A program made the position numbers and the translations under genes. From positions 1 through 33,450 of the forward strand of contig QHNJ01000144.1 of NCBI GenBank assembly GCA_003218395.1: a DNA stretch of 33,450 nt, given 5' to 3'. Positions 1-7,223 of the stretch are shown here, one piece after another (positions within the stretch are counted from its first letter, which is position 1; every line of letters starts with the position of its first letter). Below the pieces are notes generated by a model that did not search any database, was not told the origin of the DNA, and was given only the letters and a program-made list of their open reading frames with translations. The stretch is from Verrucomicrobiota bacterium (GTDB taxonomy: Bacteria > Verrucomicrobiota > Verrucomicrobiia > Chthoniobacterales > UBA10450).

Positions 1-528
1 CACCGCGCGCGCTACGATCCCCAGCACCTCGGCGATCGGCATCTCGAGGTGGAGCGAATCGCCGCGTTTCTTCATGTATTCGATTACCCGCGGCCCATAA
101 GCCAGCTTCGACATGTAAAACGAAGGCACATCGCGCAGCGCCACCTTCACACCTTTCTCGGGACTGGCCGCGGCGATGCAACTGATGGAGTTTGGCGCGC
201 CCTTGGAAATGTTGGTCGTCCCGTCGATCGGATCGATGGCGATATCAAACTGCGGCGAACCGGGGACCCAAGTGCCGAGTTGTTCGCCTTTGAAAATGCC
301 CGGCGCCTCGTCCTTGATGCCTTCGCCGATCACGACCTCACCGCAGATGTTCATTAGATCGAACATGCCGCGTATGGCGTCGGAGGCGGCTGCGTCGGCT
401 GCTTCCTTGTCGCCGCGCCCGAGCCAGCGCAACGCATTCAGTGCAGCCGCCTCGGTCGCGCGAACAAAATCGAACTCGATGATCCGCTCGATGTCCCGAT
501 AATCCTGTTTTGGCAGTCGCAGAGCCAC
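1..528 (-). CDS. glpX: class II fructose-1,6-bisphosphatase, N-terminal 176 residues (runs off the window)
   Basis: It hydrolyses fructose-1,6-bisphosphate to fructose-6-phosphate in gluconeogenesis, in the cytoplasm. Read on the minus strand, the visible part contains VVIGEG followed by KDEAP (about residues 65-75) and the metal-binding DPIDGTTN (99-106). These are hallmark motifs of the GlpX/class II family, which belongs to the Li-sensitive phosphatase superfamily. An in-frame TGA lies only 6 bp upstream of the GTG at 528, so GTG is the best start; no clear Shine-Dalgarno sequence is seen. The C-terminal half lies outside the window. It is divergent from the sigma factor gene at 630, with about 100 bp between. 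Family assignment is firm, and SBPase activity in the same protein is possible. Confidence 0.93.
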   Translation of the reverse strand, partial: MALRLPKQDYRDIERIIEFDFVRATEAAALNALRWLGRGDKEAADAAASDAIRGMFDLMNICGEVVIGEGIKDEAPGIFKGEQLGTWVPGSPQFDIAIDPIDGTTNISKGAPNSISCIAAASPEKGVKVALRDVPSFYMSKLAYGPRVIEYMKKRGDSLHLEMPIAEVLGIVARAV

Positions 529-629
529 GGAGCGTCAATTTTCACGCATCTCGTGCGCGATGACAAGGAGAACACCGCCCGGGACACTCCAGGCTTGATT
601 TTCGCCTGAGTTTTTACTTCGATTGCAGT

Positions 630-1397
630 GTGTCTGCCGATGATGAAGGGACTTCATTGGGTGCGACGGGCTTGAGGGCCCAACACGGGGCAGTCGCCTT
701 CGCCACGACGCACTGGAGCGTGGTGTTGACCGCCCAAGGTGAATCGCCAGCTGCACAAGAAGCGCTCGAAAAGCTGTGTCGCACGTATTGGCGACCCATC
801 TACGGTTTTGTGCGGCGACAAGGTATCGGGCCAGAGGAGGCGGAAGATCTTACGCAGGGTTTTTTCGCGCTGATGCTGGAGCGCAGAGATTTGAGCACTG
901 TGCGTAAGGAAAAGGGGAGACTTCGTTCTTATCTGCTTGCTTCCGTCAAAAATTTTGTGGCCGACGAACAACGCCGCGCGATGGCGATCAAGCGCGGGAA
1001 AGGAGAGCGGCTCATTCCGTTGGAAGAGCTCTCTGGTGACAAGCGGACCGAGATGGAACCGGCAGATCCAGTGACCGCCGAAGTGATTTACGAACGGAGG
1101 TGGGCCTCCACGGTTCTGGCGCACGCGCTCAACCGATTACAGGATGAATACGCGGGCACACGTAATGCCGCATTATTTGATTCGCTCACGCAATTGCTGC
1201 CGGACGAACCCGGAGCGCCGTCGCGAGCAGACATTGCCGCGAAGTTTGGCATGACCGAAAATGCCGTCACGCAGGCCTTTCATCGGTTTCGGCGGCGCTA
1301 TCAATCATTATTGCGCGAGGAAATCGCTCACACGGTTGCGACTCCCGGCGATATTGAAGACGAACTGCGTCATCTGATTGCTGTGGTTCGGGCGTAA
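630..1397 (+). CDS. ECF-type RNA polymerase sigma factor, copy 1 of the inverted cassette
   Basis: A 255-residue sigma-70 family regulator. Region 2 is visible around residues 45-110, including the core-binding stretch AEDLTQGFFALML (71-83). Region 4 is a helix-turn-helix at about 198-228 (IAAKFGMTENAVTQAFHRF). The N-terminal signature FATTHWSVVL is typical of the ECF sigma factors that sit beside Ser/Thr kinases in Planctomycetes and Verrucomicrobia. The GTG start at 630 gives exactly the same length (255 aa) as the paralogue at 3642-4409, which supports both starts. The kinase gene follows 51 bp downstream, so the two are probably cotranscribed. No anti-sigma factor gene is present; kinase-based control is the likely replacement (inference). 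The two sigma copies look roughly 60% identical by eye. Confidence 0.9.
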   Translation: MSADDEGTSLGATGLRAQHGAVAFATTHWSVVLTAQGESPAAQEALEKLCRTYWRPIYGFVRRQGIGPEEAEDLTQGFFALMLERRDLSTVRKEKGRLRSYLLASVKNFVADEQRRAMAIKRGKGERLIPLEELSGDKRTEMEPADPVTAEVIYERRWASTVLAHALNRLQDEYAGTRNAALFDSLTQLLPDEPGAPSRADIAAKFGMTENAVTQAFHRFRRRYQSLLREEIAHTVATPGDIEDELRHLIAVVRA

Positions 1398-1448
1398 TGT
1401 GCGACCAAATTTTACGCAGTACACAGTGAACGTGATGCTTCTTTGGCG

Positions 1449-2615
1449 ATGATTAGAGTGACCAGAATTTGTCGGAAGTGCGGCGCGAAAATCTTTTCCG
1501 ACGCTCCGAAAGGGCTTTGCACTGGCTGCATGCTCGAAACAGCGCTCGGGGTCTTCGCCGAAGACTTCGTAACCGCTGGCGACTCGTCCGCCGCAGCCTC
1601 GGCGAAGGCAGACGATGCGAATGCTGCACCCGACGTAAAAGGGACCACGCGCGCCGCAAACATGTTGGGAGAGTTCGGCGACTACGAGTTGCTTGAGGAA
1701 ATTGGACGCGGCGGTCAGGGAGTGGTGTTCCGCGCGCGGCAGAAAAGCCTCAATCGGACAGTTGCACTAAAGGTCATCGGTCTTGGTCAGTGGGCGACCA
1801 AAGCACACTTGAAGCGCTTTCGCCGAGAAGCGGAAGCCGCCGCGAGCCTCGATCATCCATGCATCGTCCCTATCTACGAGGTGGGCGAGCGAGATGGCTC
1901 CTGTTATTTCAGCATGAAGTTCGTCGAAGGCGGCCAGCTTGACGAAGTGATTCACCGCACGCCGATGTCGATCCGACAAGCGGCGGAATTAATTGCGAAG
2001 GTCGCGCGCACTGTTCATTACGCGCATGAACACGGCATTTTGCACCGAGACATTAAACCGGGAAACATTTTGCTCGATACTAACGGCGAACCGCATCTGA
2101 CAGATTTTGGCCTTGCCCGATTACTCGAATCCGAGAGCACGATTACGCACACGCTGGAAGTGCTGGGCACACCCAGTTACATGGCGCCGGAACAAGCTGC
2201 CGGAAATAACGCAGGTCTTAGCAGCGCCACAGACGTCTATGGACTTGGCGCCGTGTTCTATCAACTGTTAACAGGTCATCCGCCCTTTGCTGGAGGAACA
2301 ACATTTGAAACCGTCCGGCTGGTTTTAGATACCGAGCCGCGGCAACCGCGCCTGTGGAATCCGAAAGTAGATCGCGACCTTTCGACGATTTGCCTGAAAT
2401 GCCTCGAGAAAGATCCCAAGCGTCGTTACTCGTCGGCTCTCGCACTGACCGAAGATCTTGAACGCTGGTTGCGCCACGAGCCGATTCGGGCCCGGCACAC
2501 TGGGGTCTTCACCCGCGGAAAGAAATGGGTACAACGCAATCCAACAAGCGCGCTGCTTGGATTGCGTTGCACCCATTTCTTCCCTCGAGCGAAAATTCCA
2601 GTGCGCCGCGCCTGA
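1449..2615 (+). CDS. zinc-ribbon Ser/Thr protein kinase, copy 1, C-terminally truncated
   Basis: A Hanks-type kinase of 388 residues as written. An N-terminal zinc ribbon has two CxxC pairs (C8, C11, C24, C27). The catalytic domain follows: glycine loop GRGGQG (~87-92), ATP lysine in ALKV (K108), HRDIKPGN (199-206), DFG (219-221) and APE (~247). The ATG at 1449 is preferred over the TTG two codons upstream because it matches the start of copy 2. After [14 protein letters not shown], relatives normally enter a transmembrane helix and a long sensor region. Here the sequence crosses a palindrome and the last ~18 codons are read from the antisense strand of copy 2. The kinase core looks intact, but the membrane anchor and sensor are missing. 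It is either a truncated gene or one side of a chimeric join. Confidence 0.85.
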
Positions 2616-3592
2616 ATCGGTTCGTGTTTTAGCCAGCATTCCAAGTCCTCAGCCAGCGCCAGGGCGGACGGATATCGGCGCTTCGGATCTTTCTCGAGAC
2701 ACTTGAGACAAATCGTCGAGAGATCTCGATCTACTTTTGGATTCAGCAATCGGGGTGGTCTCGGCTCAGTATCCAGTAGTAACTTAATAGTTTCGTAGGT
2801 TGTTCCACCGGCAAAAGGCGGCTGACCTGTCAGTAGTTGGTAAAGTACTGCGCCAAGTCCATAGACATCTGTCACGCTGCTGACAGCGGCGTTATTTTCC
2901 ACAGCTTGTTCTGGCGACATATAGCTGGGTGTGCCCAAGACTTCCAGCGTGTGCGTGACGCTGCTTTCAGATTCGACCAATCGGGCAAGGCCAAAATCGG
3001 TCAGGTGCGGTTCGCCTTTTTGGTCGAGCAGTATGTTTCCGGGTTTGATGTCGCGGTGGAGGATGCCGTGTTGATGCGCGTAATGTACGGTTCGAGCGAC
3101 CTTCGTGATCAGTTCCACCGCGTGCCGGATCGACATCGGCGTTTGTTTAACTACTTCGTCAAGCTGACCGCCTTCTATAAACTTCATGCTGAAGTAACAC
3201 TGGCCATCACGCTCGCCAACTCCATGGATTGGAACGATACCGGGATGCTCCAGGCGAGCTGCCGCTTCCGCTTCGAGCCGAAAGCGCTTCAAGTGGGTTT
3301 TGCTTGCCCACTGACCGAGGCTAATAACTTTTAAGGCGACTGTGCGATTGAGACTCTTTTGCCGGGCGCGAAACACTACGCCTTGTCCGCCGCGGCCAAT
3401 TTGCTCAAGCAACTCGTAGTCGCCGAAGTCCATCAGCATCGACGAGGACGCGAGATTCACATTTGTTTCACGCTCGGGATCAGCTGGGCCGAGACCCGTC
3501 TCCAGCAGACACGCGCCGCAAGATTGCTGCGGGGAATCGGGCGGAATGGCTGCTCCGCATTTGCGACAAAATCTGGCGGTTGTGATTCTCAT
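2426..3592 (-). CDS. zinc-ribbon Ser/Thr protein kinase, copy 2, C-terminally truncated
   Basis: Paralogue of the kinase at 1449, also 388 residues from the ATG at 3592. An upstream in-frame start would overlap the sigma gene and add an unrelated 44-residue tail. The zinc ribbon CRKCG...CGACL is near the N-terminus. The catalytic motifs are all present: [25 protein letters not shown] and a SPEQA variant of the APE motif. The linker between ribbon and kinase is about 20 residues shorter than in copy 1. After [12 protein letters not shown] it crosses the same palindrome and ends in ~37 codons that are antisense to copy 1. It overlaps copy 1 by 190 bp on opposite strands. It follows its own sigma factor by 49 bp, the same spacing as in copy 1. 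Confidence 0.85.
2514..2587. repeat. palindromic junction between the two sigma-kinase cassettes
   Basis: An inverted repeat with no spacer, centred between 2550 and 2551 on the perfect palindrome AGCGCGCT (2547-2554). Pairing outward from the centre is nearly continuous to 2514/2587, with about five mismatched pairs in 37. Beyond that the symmetry continues as diverged coding sequence through both kinases and both sigma factors. The junction lies inside the coding region of both kinases. As RNA it would form a long hairpin, but there is no T-tract, so it is not a standard terminator. Confidence 0.9.
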
Positions 3593-3641
3593 CGCGTGGC
3601 CATTGCTTTCACTCAAATAATGCACGGAAATTCCTGATAGG

Positions 3642-4409
3642 TTACGAGCGCAACGCGGCGATGAGGTGGCGCAGTTCATCTTCAATCTCGGCTGGCGTTG
3701 CCACCGTGTGCGCGACTTCCTCACGCAACAGCTGTCGGTAACGCTGTCGCAGTCGATGGAACGCTTGTTTGATCGCGTTCTCGGTCATGCCAAACTCGCG
3801 CGCGATTTCCGCTTGCGACGGTCGATCCGGTTCGTCAGAGAGCAATGTGTTCAACCGCTCCAGCAACGGCGCGCTAGCTGATCCCTGAGATTCCTCGCGC
3901 AAGCGCGCGAACACCCGGTCTAGCACGGTGAACGCCCAGCGGCGATCATAAAGCAGATCGGCGCTCAGCATGTCGCTGCGATCGAACTCGCCAGAATCAT
4001 CCGACCCAATCCCGTCGAGCGGAATCAGCGTCCGGCCGCCGCCACGCTTGATCGTCGCGGCATCACGGCGCTCGTTCATCATGAAATGCTTGAGTGAAGC
4101 CAGAAGAAAGGAGCGCAAGCGGCCCTTTTCCTGTCGTACGGACTGGAAATCTTTGCGTTCAAGAATCAGCGCGAAAAAACCCTGGGTGATATCTTTCGCC
4201 TCCTCTGGTTTAGTACCCTCTCGCCTGACGAAGCCATAAATAGGTCGCCAGTAAGTGCGGCAAAGATTTTCGAGCGCCTCCTGTGCGGCTGGCGATTCAC
4301 CTTGTGCCTCCAGCACCACACTCCAATGCGTAGTGGTAAACATAGCCGCGCCACCAGACGCCGAACCAGTCGCGCTCAGTGAAGTCACGTCATCGGGAGC
4401 GGCGCTCAC
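3642..4409 (-). CDS. ECF-type RNA polymerase sigma factor, copy 2 of the inverted cassette
   Basis: A 255-residue ECF sigma factor paralogous to the one at 630. It shares the TTTHWSVVL signature, the region 2 stretch ITQGFFALIL and a region 4 helix-turn-helix (IAREFGMTENAIKQAFHRL), and ends HTVATPAEIEDELRHLIAALRS, nearly the same as copy 1. The frame stays open upstream to 4568. The GTG at 4409 is chosen because it gives the same length as copy 1 and the same SL-ATG spacing; the extra upstream residues have no counterpart there. It is divergent from ileS and upstream of kinase copy 2. Mismatches are spread throughout, so this is not a simple duplicated read of copy 1. Confidence 0.88.
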   Translation of the reverse strand: MSAAPDDVTSLSATGSASGGAAMFTTTHWSVVLEAQGESPAAQEALENLCRTYWRPIYGFVRREGTKPEEAKDITQGFFALILERKDFQSVRQEKGRLRSFLLASLKHFMMNERRDAATIKRGGGRTLIPLDGIGSDDSGEFDRSDMLSADLLYDRRWAFTVLDRVFARLREESQGSASAPLLERLNTLLSDEPDRPSQAEIAREFGMTENAIKQAFHRLRQRYRQLLREEVAHTVATPAEIEDELRHLIAALRS

Positions 4410-4566
4410 ACCATAATCACAGTCAAAAGGTGTGCCGAAAGCAAGCCTGCATCGAGCATGTTGTACTTGGGCTTTGGACGGATCACCGGGCCAAGAGCAT
4501 GCCTGTCTCAGTGTACATGCATTGATTTGTGGAGGCGCGAATGCTACGTAGCGGCGCCCGGCCATC

Positions 4567-7017
4567 ATGACCCAGAATTACAAAGAAACGCTGAATTTGC
4601 CGCGGACAGAGTTTCCGATGAAGGCAAACCTTGCCGCGCGCGAGCCGGAAATGCTCAGGGCGTGGGAGGAGACGCGACTTTACCACCAAATTCAGAAATC
4701 GAGAGAGGAGCGAGAGTTATTTGTCCTGCATGATGGGCCGCCATTCGCGAACGGCGATGTCCACATGGGCACGGCGCTAAACAAAATCCTCAAAGATTTC
4801 GTGGTGAAATCGCAGACCATGCTCGGGAGACGCGCGCCTTACATCCCCGGCTGGGACTGTCATGGTCTGCCTATCGAATACAAAGTGGTGAAGGAGTCCC
4901 GCGGCCTTTCTCCGCTCGAAGTCCGCAAAAAATCCGAAGCGTTCGCCCGAAAATTTGTCAATGTGCAGCGCGAGCAATTCAAGCGGCTCGGCGTCTTCGG
5001 CGATTGGGAAAATCCATATCTAACGATGGATCCCAAATACGAAGCGGAAATTCTGCGCGCGTTCGCCGTTTTCGTTGAGGAAGGTCTCGTTTATCAATCG
5101 AAGAAGCCGGTCTTTTGGAGCACCGGCGCGCAGACCGCGCTCGCCGAAGCCGAAGTGGAATATCAGGAGCGCGACGACACCGCGGTTTACGTTAAATTTC
5201 CGATCGTAAGTGGTGAGTTCAAGGATAAGGCGAGCATCGCAATCTGGACAACAACTCCGTGGACTTTGCCCGCGAACCTTGCCATCGCTGTCGATCCAAA
5301 AACAGAATATCTCGTCGTGATGGCTGGCAAAGATGGCAAGGCTGAAAACTTGATTGTGGCCAAGCCGTTACTCGACGCCTTCATGCAAGCGACTGGTTTG
5401 ATTGTGATGAAACAAACCGGCGCGATCGTCGGAGAAAAACTCTCCGGCAGCACAGCGCAACATCCGTTTCTAGATCGACAATCAATCGTCCTCACGGCTG
5501 ATTTCGTCACGATGGATAGCGGCACAGGCGCCGTCCACATCGCCCCCGGTCACGGCGAAGATGATTATTGGCTAGGCCGGCAAAATAAATTGCCAGTTTT
5601 GTCGCCTGTGGACGATCACGGCCGTTTCACTGAGGAAGCCGGTCTGCCAAACCTTGTTGGCAAATACGTCTTCGACGCCAACCGCGACATTGTCGAATTG
5701 CTGCGCGAGCGCGGCATGCTGCTTGGCGAACAGAAGTTTCATCACTCCTATCCGTATTGCTGGCGCTCAAAAACACCGATCATCTTCCGCAATGTCGAGC
5801 AATTCTTCATTCGGATTGATGAGCTGCGTGGCAGAGCGCTCGATGCCATTCACAAAGAAGTGAAATGGATTCCAAAGTGGGGCGAAAATCGCATCGCGGG
5901 CACAGTCGAATCGCGGCCCGATTGGGTGATCTCGCGCCAACGCAGCTGGGGCGTGCCGCTGCCGGTTTTTTATTCAAGAGAGGGACGCGCGATTCTCGAT
6001 GCAAAAATTATTCGCAAGCTCGCTGATCTCGTCGCACAGCGCGGGTCAAATATTTGGTTTGAGTTGAATGATGTCGATCTTGCGCGCGAGCTCGGCTTGC
6101 CGGAGGGCGCCGCGCATCGCAACGACACGATCGACGTTTGGATCGACAGCGGCGTTTCACACAAAGCCGTTTGTGCGCTGCATCCTGAACTGCGCGATCC
6201 CGCTGACATGTATCTCGAGGCGACCGATCAGCATCGGGGTTGGTTTCAATCGTCACTCCTGACAAGCGTCGCATTGAACAATCGCGCGCCGTACAAAACC
6301 TGCGTCACTCACGGTTTTGTTGTCGATCTTGACGGAAAAAAGATCTCGAAATCGGGAACGTACGACAAACCGACAGCCGCCGAGCATTTCGTTGGCCGCC
6401 ATGGCGCCGATCTGGTTCGGCTATGGGCCAGTAGTATCGATTACACCGACGACGTGCCCTTCTCTGAGGAAATGTTCGCGCGCCTCGGCGATACATACCG
6501 CCGAATTCGGAACACGCTGCGCATCTTGTTGGGAAATCTTTTTGATTTCCCTGTCGCGGCGCTCTCTGAGCGTCGTGCCAATCTGCGATCGGAGATCGCC
6601 ACTACAGACTTTACATTGATTGATCGCTGGATTCTTCACCGTCTGGACAACGTGATTGCGGATTGTCGATTCGCTTACGAAACGTTCGAATTTCACAAGG
6701 TTTATCACACGCTCAATGAATTTTGTGCTGTGGACCTGAGCAGCCTGTATATCGACATCACCAAGGACCGCATGTATTGCGACGAGTCGGATTCGCCGCG
6801 ACGCCGTGTGACGCAAACGGTCATGCATGAAATTTTCGACGCGCTCTGCCGGTTGCTTGCGCCAATTCTCGCATTCACAGCCGAGGAAGCATGGCGCCAT
6901 TCCGGCACGGGCGCCTCGGTTCACCTGCAGGAATTTCCGGACCAAATAGTGTATCGCGATCCGGATGCAGATCGGCAAATGAGCGAGGTTCTACAAATGC
7001 GTTCCTCGAAGAGATAA
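4567..7017 (+). CDS. ileS: isoleucyl-tRNA synthetase, prematurely terminated (816 aa)
   Basis: It charges tRNA-Ile with isoleucine and edits misacylated valine, in the cytoplasm. The class I signatures are present: HMGT (66-69, the HIGH motif) within DGPPFANGDVHMGT, and KISKS (592-596). The CP1 editing domain and the anticodon-binding domain are present. Family members run about 900-950 residues, but this frame stops at 816 just after EVLQMR, where the linker to the C-terminal zinc domain should begin. The zinc domain is found downstream in another frame (see 7002-7223). Compared with E. coli IleS, roughly 40-45 residues of linker are missing and the frame is shifted. This suggests an internal deletion of about 125-135 bp, real or from assembly. 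The gene lies upstream of lspA, a common bacterial neighbourhood. Confidence 0.92.
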   Translation: MTQNYKETLNLPRTEFPMKANLAAREPEMLRAWEETRLYHQIQKSREERELFVLHDGPPFANGDVHMGTALNKILKDFVVKSQTMLGRRAPYIPGWDCHGLPIEYKVVKESRGLSPLEVRKKSEAFARKFVNVQREQFKRLGVFGDWENPYLTMDPKYEAEILRAFAVFVEEGLVYQSKKPVFWSTGAQTALAEAEVEYQERDDTAVYVKFPIVSGEFKDKASIAIWTTTPWTLPANLAIAVDPKTEYLVVMAGKDGKAENLIVAKPLLDAFMQATGLIVMKQTGAIVGEKLSGSTAQHPFLDRQSIVLTADFVTMDSGTGAVHIAPGHGEDDYWLGRQNKLPVLSPVDDHGRFTEEAGLPNLVGKYVFDANRDIVELLRERGMLLGEQKFHHSYPYCWRSKTPIIFRNVEQFFIRIDELRGRALDAIHKEVKWIPKWGENRIAGTVESRPDWVISRQRSWGVPLPVFYSREGRAILDAKIIRKLADLVAQRGSNIWFELNDVDLARELGLPEGAAHRNDTIDVWIDSGVSHKAVCALHPELRDPADMYLEATDQHRGWFQSSLLTSVALNNRAPYKTCVTHGFVVDLDGKKISKSGTYDKPTAAEHFVGRHGADLVRLWASSIDYTDDVPFSEEMFARLGDTYRRIRNTLRILLGNLFDFPVAALSERRANLRSEIATTDFTLIDRWILHRLDNVIADCRFAYETFEFHKVYHTLNEFCAVDLSSLYIDITKDRMYCDESDSPRRRVTQTVMHEIFDALCRLLAPILAFTAEEAWRHSGTGASVHLQEFPDQIVYRDPDADRQMSEVLQMRSSKR

Positions 7018-7223
7018 TGATGGTAAGCTCCTTCCGCTTGGAAGCTGGAACTATCGAAGCGGTACACGCCAGTGTTGGCCGAACCCGTTACAAGAAATGT
7101 GCGCGTTGTTGGCGTCATCGGCCAACGGTTGGCGCGAGCAAAGCGCATCCCGACTTGTGCGACCGCTGCGAGAGCGTAGTGGAGGCGAACAAAAGCCGTG
7201 TCGCACACGAGATTACCGAATGA
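7002..7223 (+). pseudogene. ileS: C-terminal zinc-binding domain of IleS, out of frame with the main gene
   Basis: In frame 3 the sequence reads FLEEIMMVSSFRL, then KCARCWRH and LCDRCE, ending at a TGA at 7221. This is the usual IleS C-terminus with a four-cysteine zinc site (CxxC...CxxC). It is shifted relative to the frame that ends at 7017. Two ATG codons follow at once: the ileS stop TAA (7015-7017) overlaps the first (7017-7019) as TAATG. A separate 68-residue zinc peptide could therefore be made by translational reinitiation. A deletion artefact or pseudogene tail is the simpler reading. Confidence 0.8.

Follow-up and report, generated by a model that had tools for sequence, protein, structure and literature searches.

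A probable chimeric join between two sigma factor-kinase cassettes in a draft genome of a soil verrucomicrobium

In ECF43 systems, a sigma factor is paired with a Hanks-type kinase that phosphorylates it, as in EcfK-PknS of Xanthomonas citri and EcfP-PknT of Vibrio parahaemolyticus, and a QTTA-type motif bearing a phosphothreonine typically takes the place of the acidic DxxD residues in sigma region 2.2 (PMC13147305). Repeats limit the contiguity of metagenome-assembled genomes (MAGs) built from short reads (available text of PMC7283042), and palindromic, inverted chimeric reads arise after MDA (available text of PMC13265396). The window, 33,450 nucleotides in all, is the whole of contig C144 of a draft MAG of 2.95 Mb in 335 contigs (88% complete). 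The closest named matches of this MAG are Ca. Udaeobacter and other soil Verrucomicrobia MAGs, and its genus is Ca. Udaeobacter-like. Comparisons covered 35 genomes of the genus, the MAG itself and 34 others.

Two cassettes meeting tail to tail

A preliminary description of this DNA reported two cassettes between 630 and 4409, each a 255-aa sigma factor gene followed by a kinase gene, with gaps of 51 bp (sigA-kinA) and 49 bp (sigB-kinB), meeting tail to tail without a spacer at AGCGCGCT. Its coordinates were exact (Table 1). The core is an inverted repeat with arms at 1662-2550 and 2551-3439, 889 nt each, 78% complementary, and with 0 nt of spacer; additional inverted matches span the sigma genes (703-1024 with 4015-4336 and 1193-1397 with 3642-3846). 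The arms resemble each other far more closely than chance would allow. The sigma factor proteins, judged by eye to be about 60% identical, are 63% identical when measured, and the kinases are 82% identical across most of the kinase domain. These values bear out the earlier exclusion of a simple fold-back copy of one locus.

Both kinases easily pass as Hanks-type Ser/Thr kinases, with PF00069 matches far over the cut-off, the lysine, HRD and DFG motifs, and DFGLA in each. Profile matches of the sigma factors (sigma70-ECF and Sigma70_r2 among them) fall just below the curated cut-offs: TIGR02937 at 35.8 and 33.6 bits (cut-off 42.9), PF04542 at 23.9 (cut-off 24), and PF08281 at 20.9 (cut-off 25.7). 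The report that both kinases are cut at one codon needs refinement. Homology is indeed lost at the identical codon in kinA and kinB, after QRNP-x-SAL, but neither frame has a stop codon at the join; each reads on through the antisense of the opposite arm until a chance stop, kinA to 2615 on the plus strand and kinB to 2426 on the minus strand.

Table 1. Features around the join, with coordinates in the window
Feature	Coordinates	Strand	Evidence
glpX, class II fructose-bisphosphatase, 5′ part, truncated by contig edge	1..528	-	TIGR00330; glpX-sigma-kinase order in relatives
Promoter-like element GCTTGATTT-N9-TTTTTACTTCGAT, upstream of sigA	593..623	+	0 mismatches to genus consensus
sigA, 255-aa ECF-like sigma factor, GTG start	630..1397	+	sigma matches below cut-off; 94% identical to G014:C197 protein
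kinA, N-terminal part of Hanks-type Ser/Thr kinase, ATG start, cut before transmembrane helix	1449..2554	+	PF00069, E=1e-56
Join of arms, AGCGCGCT, probable chimeric junction	2547..2554	.	similarity collapse to all relatives compared, both directions
kinB, N-terminal kinase part, ATG start, cut at the same codon as kinA	2547..3592	-	PF00069, E=7e-54; orthologous N-half full length in relatives
sigB, 255-aa ECF-like sigma factor, GTG start	3642..4409	-	63% identical to sigA; 95% to G014:C210 protein
Promoter-like element upstream of sigB	4416..4446	-	2 mismatches to consensus
ileS	4567..7223	+	TIGR00392; first frame ends at 7017, C-terminal part in another frame

Separate loci of the two arms in related genomes

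Congeneric kinases of the same type do not stop at RNPxSAL. After this motif comes a hydrophobic helix (LLAASLVALAAAAGWIIWKSE), followed by a TolB/FlgO-like part and TPR repeats, the complete proteins being about 810-990 aa long; the C-terminal transmembrane sensor ascribed to such kinases in the preliminary description thus has its counterpart in the membrane helix and C-terminal domain of these full-length proteins.

The left arm, intergenic DNA included, matches G014:C197 without a break over window positions 1-2569 (89% DNA identity) and is colinear with it to the join. The kinase on that contig has 876 aa, and kinA is 86% identical to it. In 11 relatives the sigma gene adjoins glpX and points away from it, with a kinase gene next wherever the contig extends far enough. 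The gene order of the right arm (ileS, intergenic region, sigma, kinase) is that of G017:C116, where the kinase has 967 aa; this contig is colinear with window positions 3489-5300 and on to 12516. G017 carries both loci on different contigs, the ileS-linked one on C116 and the glpX-linked one on C77 with a 971-aa kinase. Separate loci with full-length kinases are therefore documented by G014:C197 and G017:C77 on the glpX side and by G017:C116 on the ileS side, which was the pattern named in advance as the mark of an assembly chimera. Because each arm has its own locus in relatives, the proposal that two diverged paralogous loci were joined is supported.

Exactly at the join, identity to the relatives compared sinks to the level of random sequence: values of 0.72-0.96 give way to about 0.3-0.5 within one 50-bp bin on either side. 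The preliminary description had proposed looking for the same tail-to-tail order in related genomes. Among 176 kinase-bearing loci screened for it, some of them overlapping, there was no other immediate tail-to-tail kinase pair; the sole loose case was a convergent pair of unrelated kinases more than 1.2 kb apart in a planctomycete.

Orthology of the right-hand cassette by locus is not wholly clean. The closest relative of sigB by sequence (95%, G014:C210) does not lie beside ileS, nor does the G028:C46 cassette, which has a sigB-like gene (87%) and a kinB-like N-half (84%). These positions mean that cassettes also move or recombine naturally in the genus. Two further cassettes were observed in passing. 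On G003:C339 (L132, 7498-9998), a B-type sigma-kinase cassette directly adjoins glpX and its kinase skips about 48 and about 27 residues, which suggests either cassette exchange between loci or misassembly. A third cassette similar to sigB and kinB lies in the MAG itself, on C180 (L163, 6086-7250); its sigma gene is split over two frames and its kinase similarity ends after about 95 aa in the middle of the contig, as might be expected of a pseudogene or of another misjoin.

Origin of the join

The comparisons above make it very probable that the join is a chimera in which two native paralogous loci from a single genome were brought together by assembly, by scaffolding or gap closing, or by library amplification. 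An assembly error, rather than a new kind of gene arrangement, is the most likely reading. One soil verrucomicrobial genome would carry glpX-sigA-kinA at one locus and ileS-sigB-kinB at another, and, past the join position, each native kinase would have a membrane helix and a domain of TolB/FlgO-like plus TPR type. We infer that the arms were falsely fused at the single short stretch where the sense strand of A agrees with the antisense strand of B, of which 8 bp are certain and which perhaps reaches about 13 bp; fusion at the sole agreeing stretch would make both kinases look cut at the same codon. A chimera predicts that each arm occurs at a different locus in close relatives and that the gene there continues past the join, and this is what the relatives show. 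Several observations count against it: an overlap of 8-13 bp is below the usual k-mer overlap length, the 3′ half of kinA was not found elsewhere in the assembly, the kinase tail on contig C23 (below) starts well past the join, and the cassettes of G014:C210 and G028:C46 do not adjoin ileS.

The preliminary description had offered two origins, a palindrome-mediated fusion and a chimera made during amplification or assembly. The chimera is much the better supported of the two, and the palindrome did not hold up as evidence for a cause. The window contains two copies of AGCGCGCT, with 1.64 expected from shuffles, and intact relatives have it at the same kinase position (as in CCAACAAGCGCGCT|ACTAGCAGC and CCAAGCAGCGCGCT|ACTTGCAGC). 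A palindrome at the join is expected, because homologous tails joined at the same position are palindromic wherever both copies agree; here the two copies agree for 4 bp on either side of the join and then differ at two positions. AGCGCGCT is thus a possible native microhomology and not an independent sign of mechanism. The longest exact match between sense A and antisense B elsewhere in the arms is 10 bp, and relatives put the overlap at the join at about 13 bp at most, so a long k-mer overlap was dropped as a candidate. The 28-mer spanning the junction was not present in viral contigs.

The missing 3′ halves were sought in the same assembly. The gene that follows the ileS-linked kinase of G017 has its counterpart on contig C23. 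This contig begins in an open frame for the C-terminal domain of a kinase, within the final ~220 codons, and is then colinear with G017. The kinase tail on C23 begins about 360 codons beyond the join, and C23 holds no intact kinB across the join position. The tail that follows the right-arm-type kinase on G028:C46 is 93% identical to C23. Given the content of C23 and its link to G028:C46, the right arm probably continues naturally on another contig of the same genome. The 3′ half of kinA was not found elsewhere in this 88% complete assembly, in which the gene downstream of the glpX-linked kinase of G017 has a weak match at most. Contigs C99, C130, and C315 were considered as the missing half and rejected, as their best matches belong to other families. 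While the first 1.3 kb of C23 is 93% identical to G028:C46, a 4.8-kb stretch of it (L251, 1505-6316) is 97.6% identical to G012:C86, other shared regions being mostly 80-93% identical. Recent transfer and mosaic assembly are both suggested by this near-identity.

Several other signs of assembly trouble were seen. kinA is a mosaic that resembles G014 to about 2200 and G012:C87 in the closing ~250 bp; the switch within 2150-2554 may reflect a wandering assembly path or gene conversion among the kinase paralogues. Of the 11 relatives that have a glpX-linked copy, 5 show a contig end inside the cassette, so these paralogues do break assemblies. The essential gene ileS, 2.5 kb to the right of sigB and the sole ileS in the assembly, is short of about 40 codons and changes frame near 7005. 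In a tblastn search with a 911-aa G006 protein, residues 6-810 matched and then residues 850-908 in frame 3; the affected stretch is about 6939-7223. This frame-breaking deletion is likely to be a second assembly defect; split ileS genes are present in other MAGs of the genus.

Could the strain nevertheless have this arrangement in its chromosome? If both kinase genes broke at the short palindromic homology, inversion or template switching would then fuse the two 5′ halves tail to tail and leave two truncated soluble kinases. The arms meet cleanly at an 8-bp inverted homology that is real and native, both open reading frames are intact up to the join, and a recent event would be compatible with the sequence alone. 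We nevertheless consider such a rearrangement unlikely. It would have stripped both kinases of their membrane and sensor regions at one and the same codon, a loss seen in no relative; the kinase tail on C23 lies in an uninterrupted frame with the usual genes after it; no reciprocal 3′-3′ junction was seen in the assembly and the left 3′ half is absent from it; and the same contig has a further defect in ileS. Slightly less credence still can be given to its strongest form, a strain-specific inversion at the palindrome inside the kinase genes that uncoupled both kinase domains at once from their membrane sensors and thereby rewired two sigma circuits.

The zero spacer and the homology of the arms throughout would also fit an ancient event in which one cassette was duplicated tail to tail, the copies later diverging and losing the center, with both 3′ halves, by palindrome-driven deletion. 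Deletion of the center is the usual fate of long palindromes and would suit this history. That history is very improbable, however, given that the neighbors of the arms differ (glpX and ileS) and occur in relatives at separate loci with separate cassettes, that G017 has the two loci apart, and that a two-armed ancestor survives in none of the relatives. A real join would amount to a natural double truncation of two signaling kinases. Under the preferred reading, a chimera, draft genomes of these abundant soil bacteria break and misjoin at their multi-copy sigma-kinase cassettes, and truncated or oddly ordered cassettes in such drafts should therefore not be taken as biology.

Native cassettes, their promoter-like element, and known systems

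An element of the form GCTTG[A/C]TTT-N9-TTTTTANTTNGAT (that is, GCTTG[A/C]TTT-N9-TTTTTA-N-TT-N-GAT) ends 7-10 nt before the GTG starts of sigma genes across the genus. It matches at least 17 of 20 positions in 58 of 70 distinct upstream regions, while shuffled sequence reaches at most 13. With up to 3 mismatches allowed, the 2.95-Mb genome contains only the two sites listed in Table 1 and none for the reversed pattern; genus-wide there are about 80 sites, versus 2 for the reversed pattern, and 27 of the 31 sites inspected precede a recognizable sigma gene. The sigma gene would be expressed from this short conserved promoter, and with the start codon so near to its end the transcript probably has no leader, or almost none. 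The element is a candidate autoregulatory, near-leaderless promoter and offers a concrete handle on the control of sigma-kinase cassettes. The native full-length kinase may be membrane anchored, sense through its C-terminal domain, and control the sigma factor encoded upstream, probably by phosphorylation.

As in ECF43 systems, a sigma gene and a Hanks-type kinase gene are immediate neighbors in these cassettes, and the native full-length kinase is a membrane protein. Unlike ECF43, both sigma factors in the window retain the acids of region 2.2 (EEAEDLTQG and EEAKDITQG), so the phosphothreonine switch does not fit; neither sigA nor sigB has the ECF43 form of region 2.2, without DxxD acids and with a QTTA-type phosphothreonine motif. 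Phosphorylation elsewhere in the sigma factor, or of a partner, is possible. The join itself differs from the fold-back chimeras of MDA, as far as these are covered in the available text of PMC13265396, in that its arms are diverged paralogues (63-82% protein identity) and not one molecule, and a plain MDA hairpin mechanism would thus be insufficient. What it shares with the short-read assembly and library chimeras at repeats treated in the available text of PMC7283042 and PMC13265396 is an inverted join within a multi-copy gene family, frequent contig ends, and a fragmented draft.
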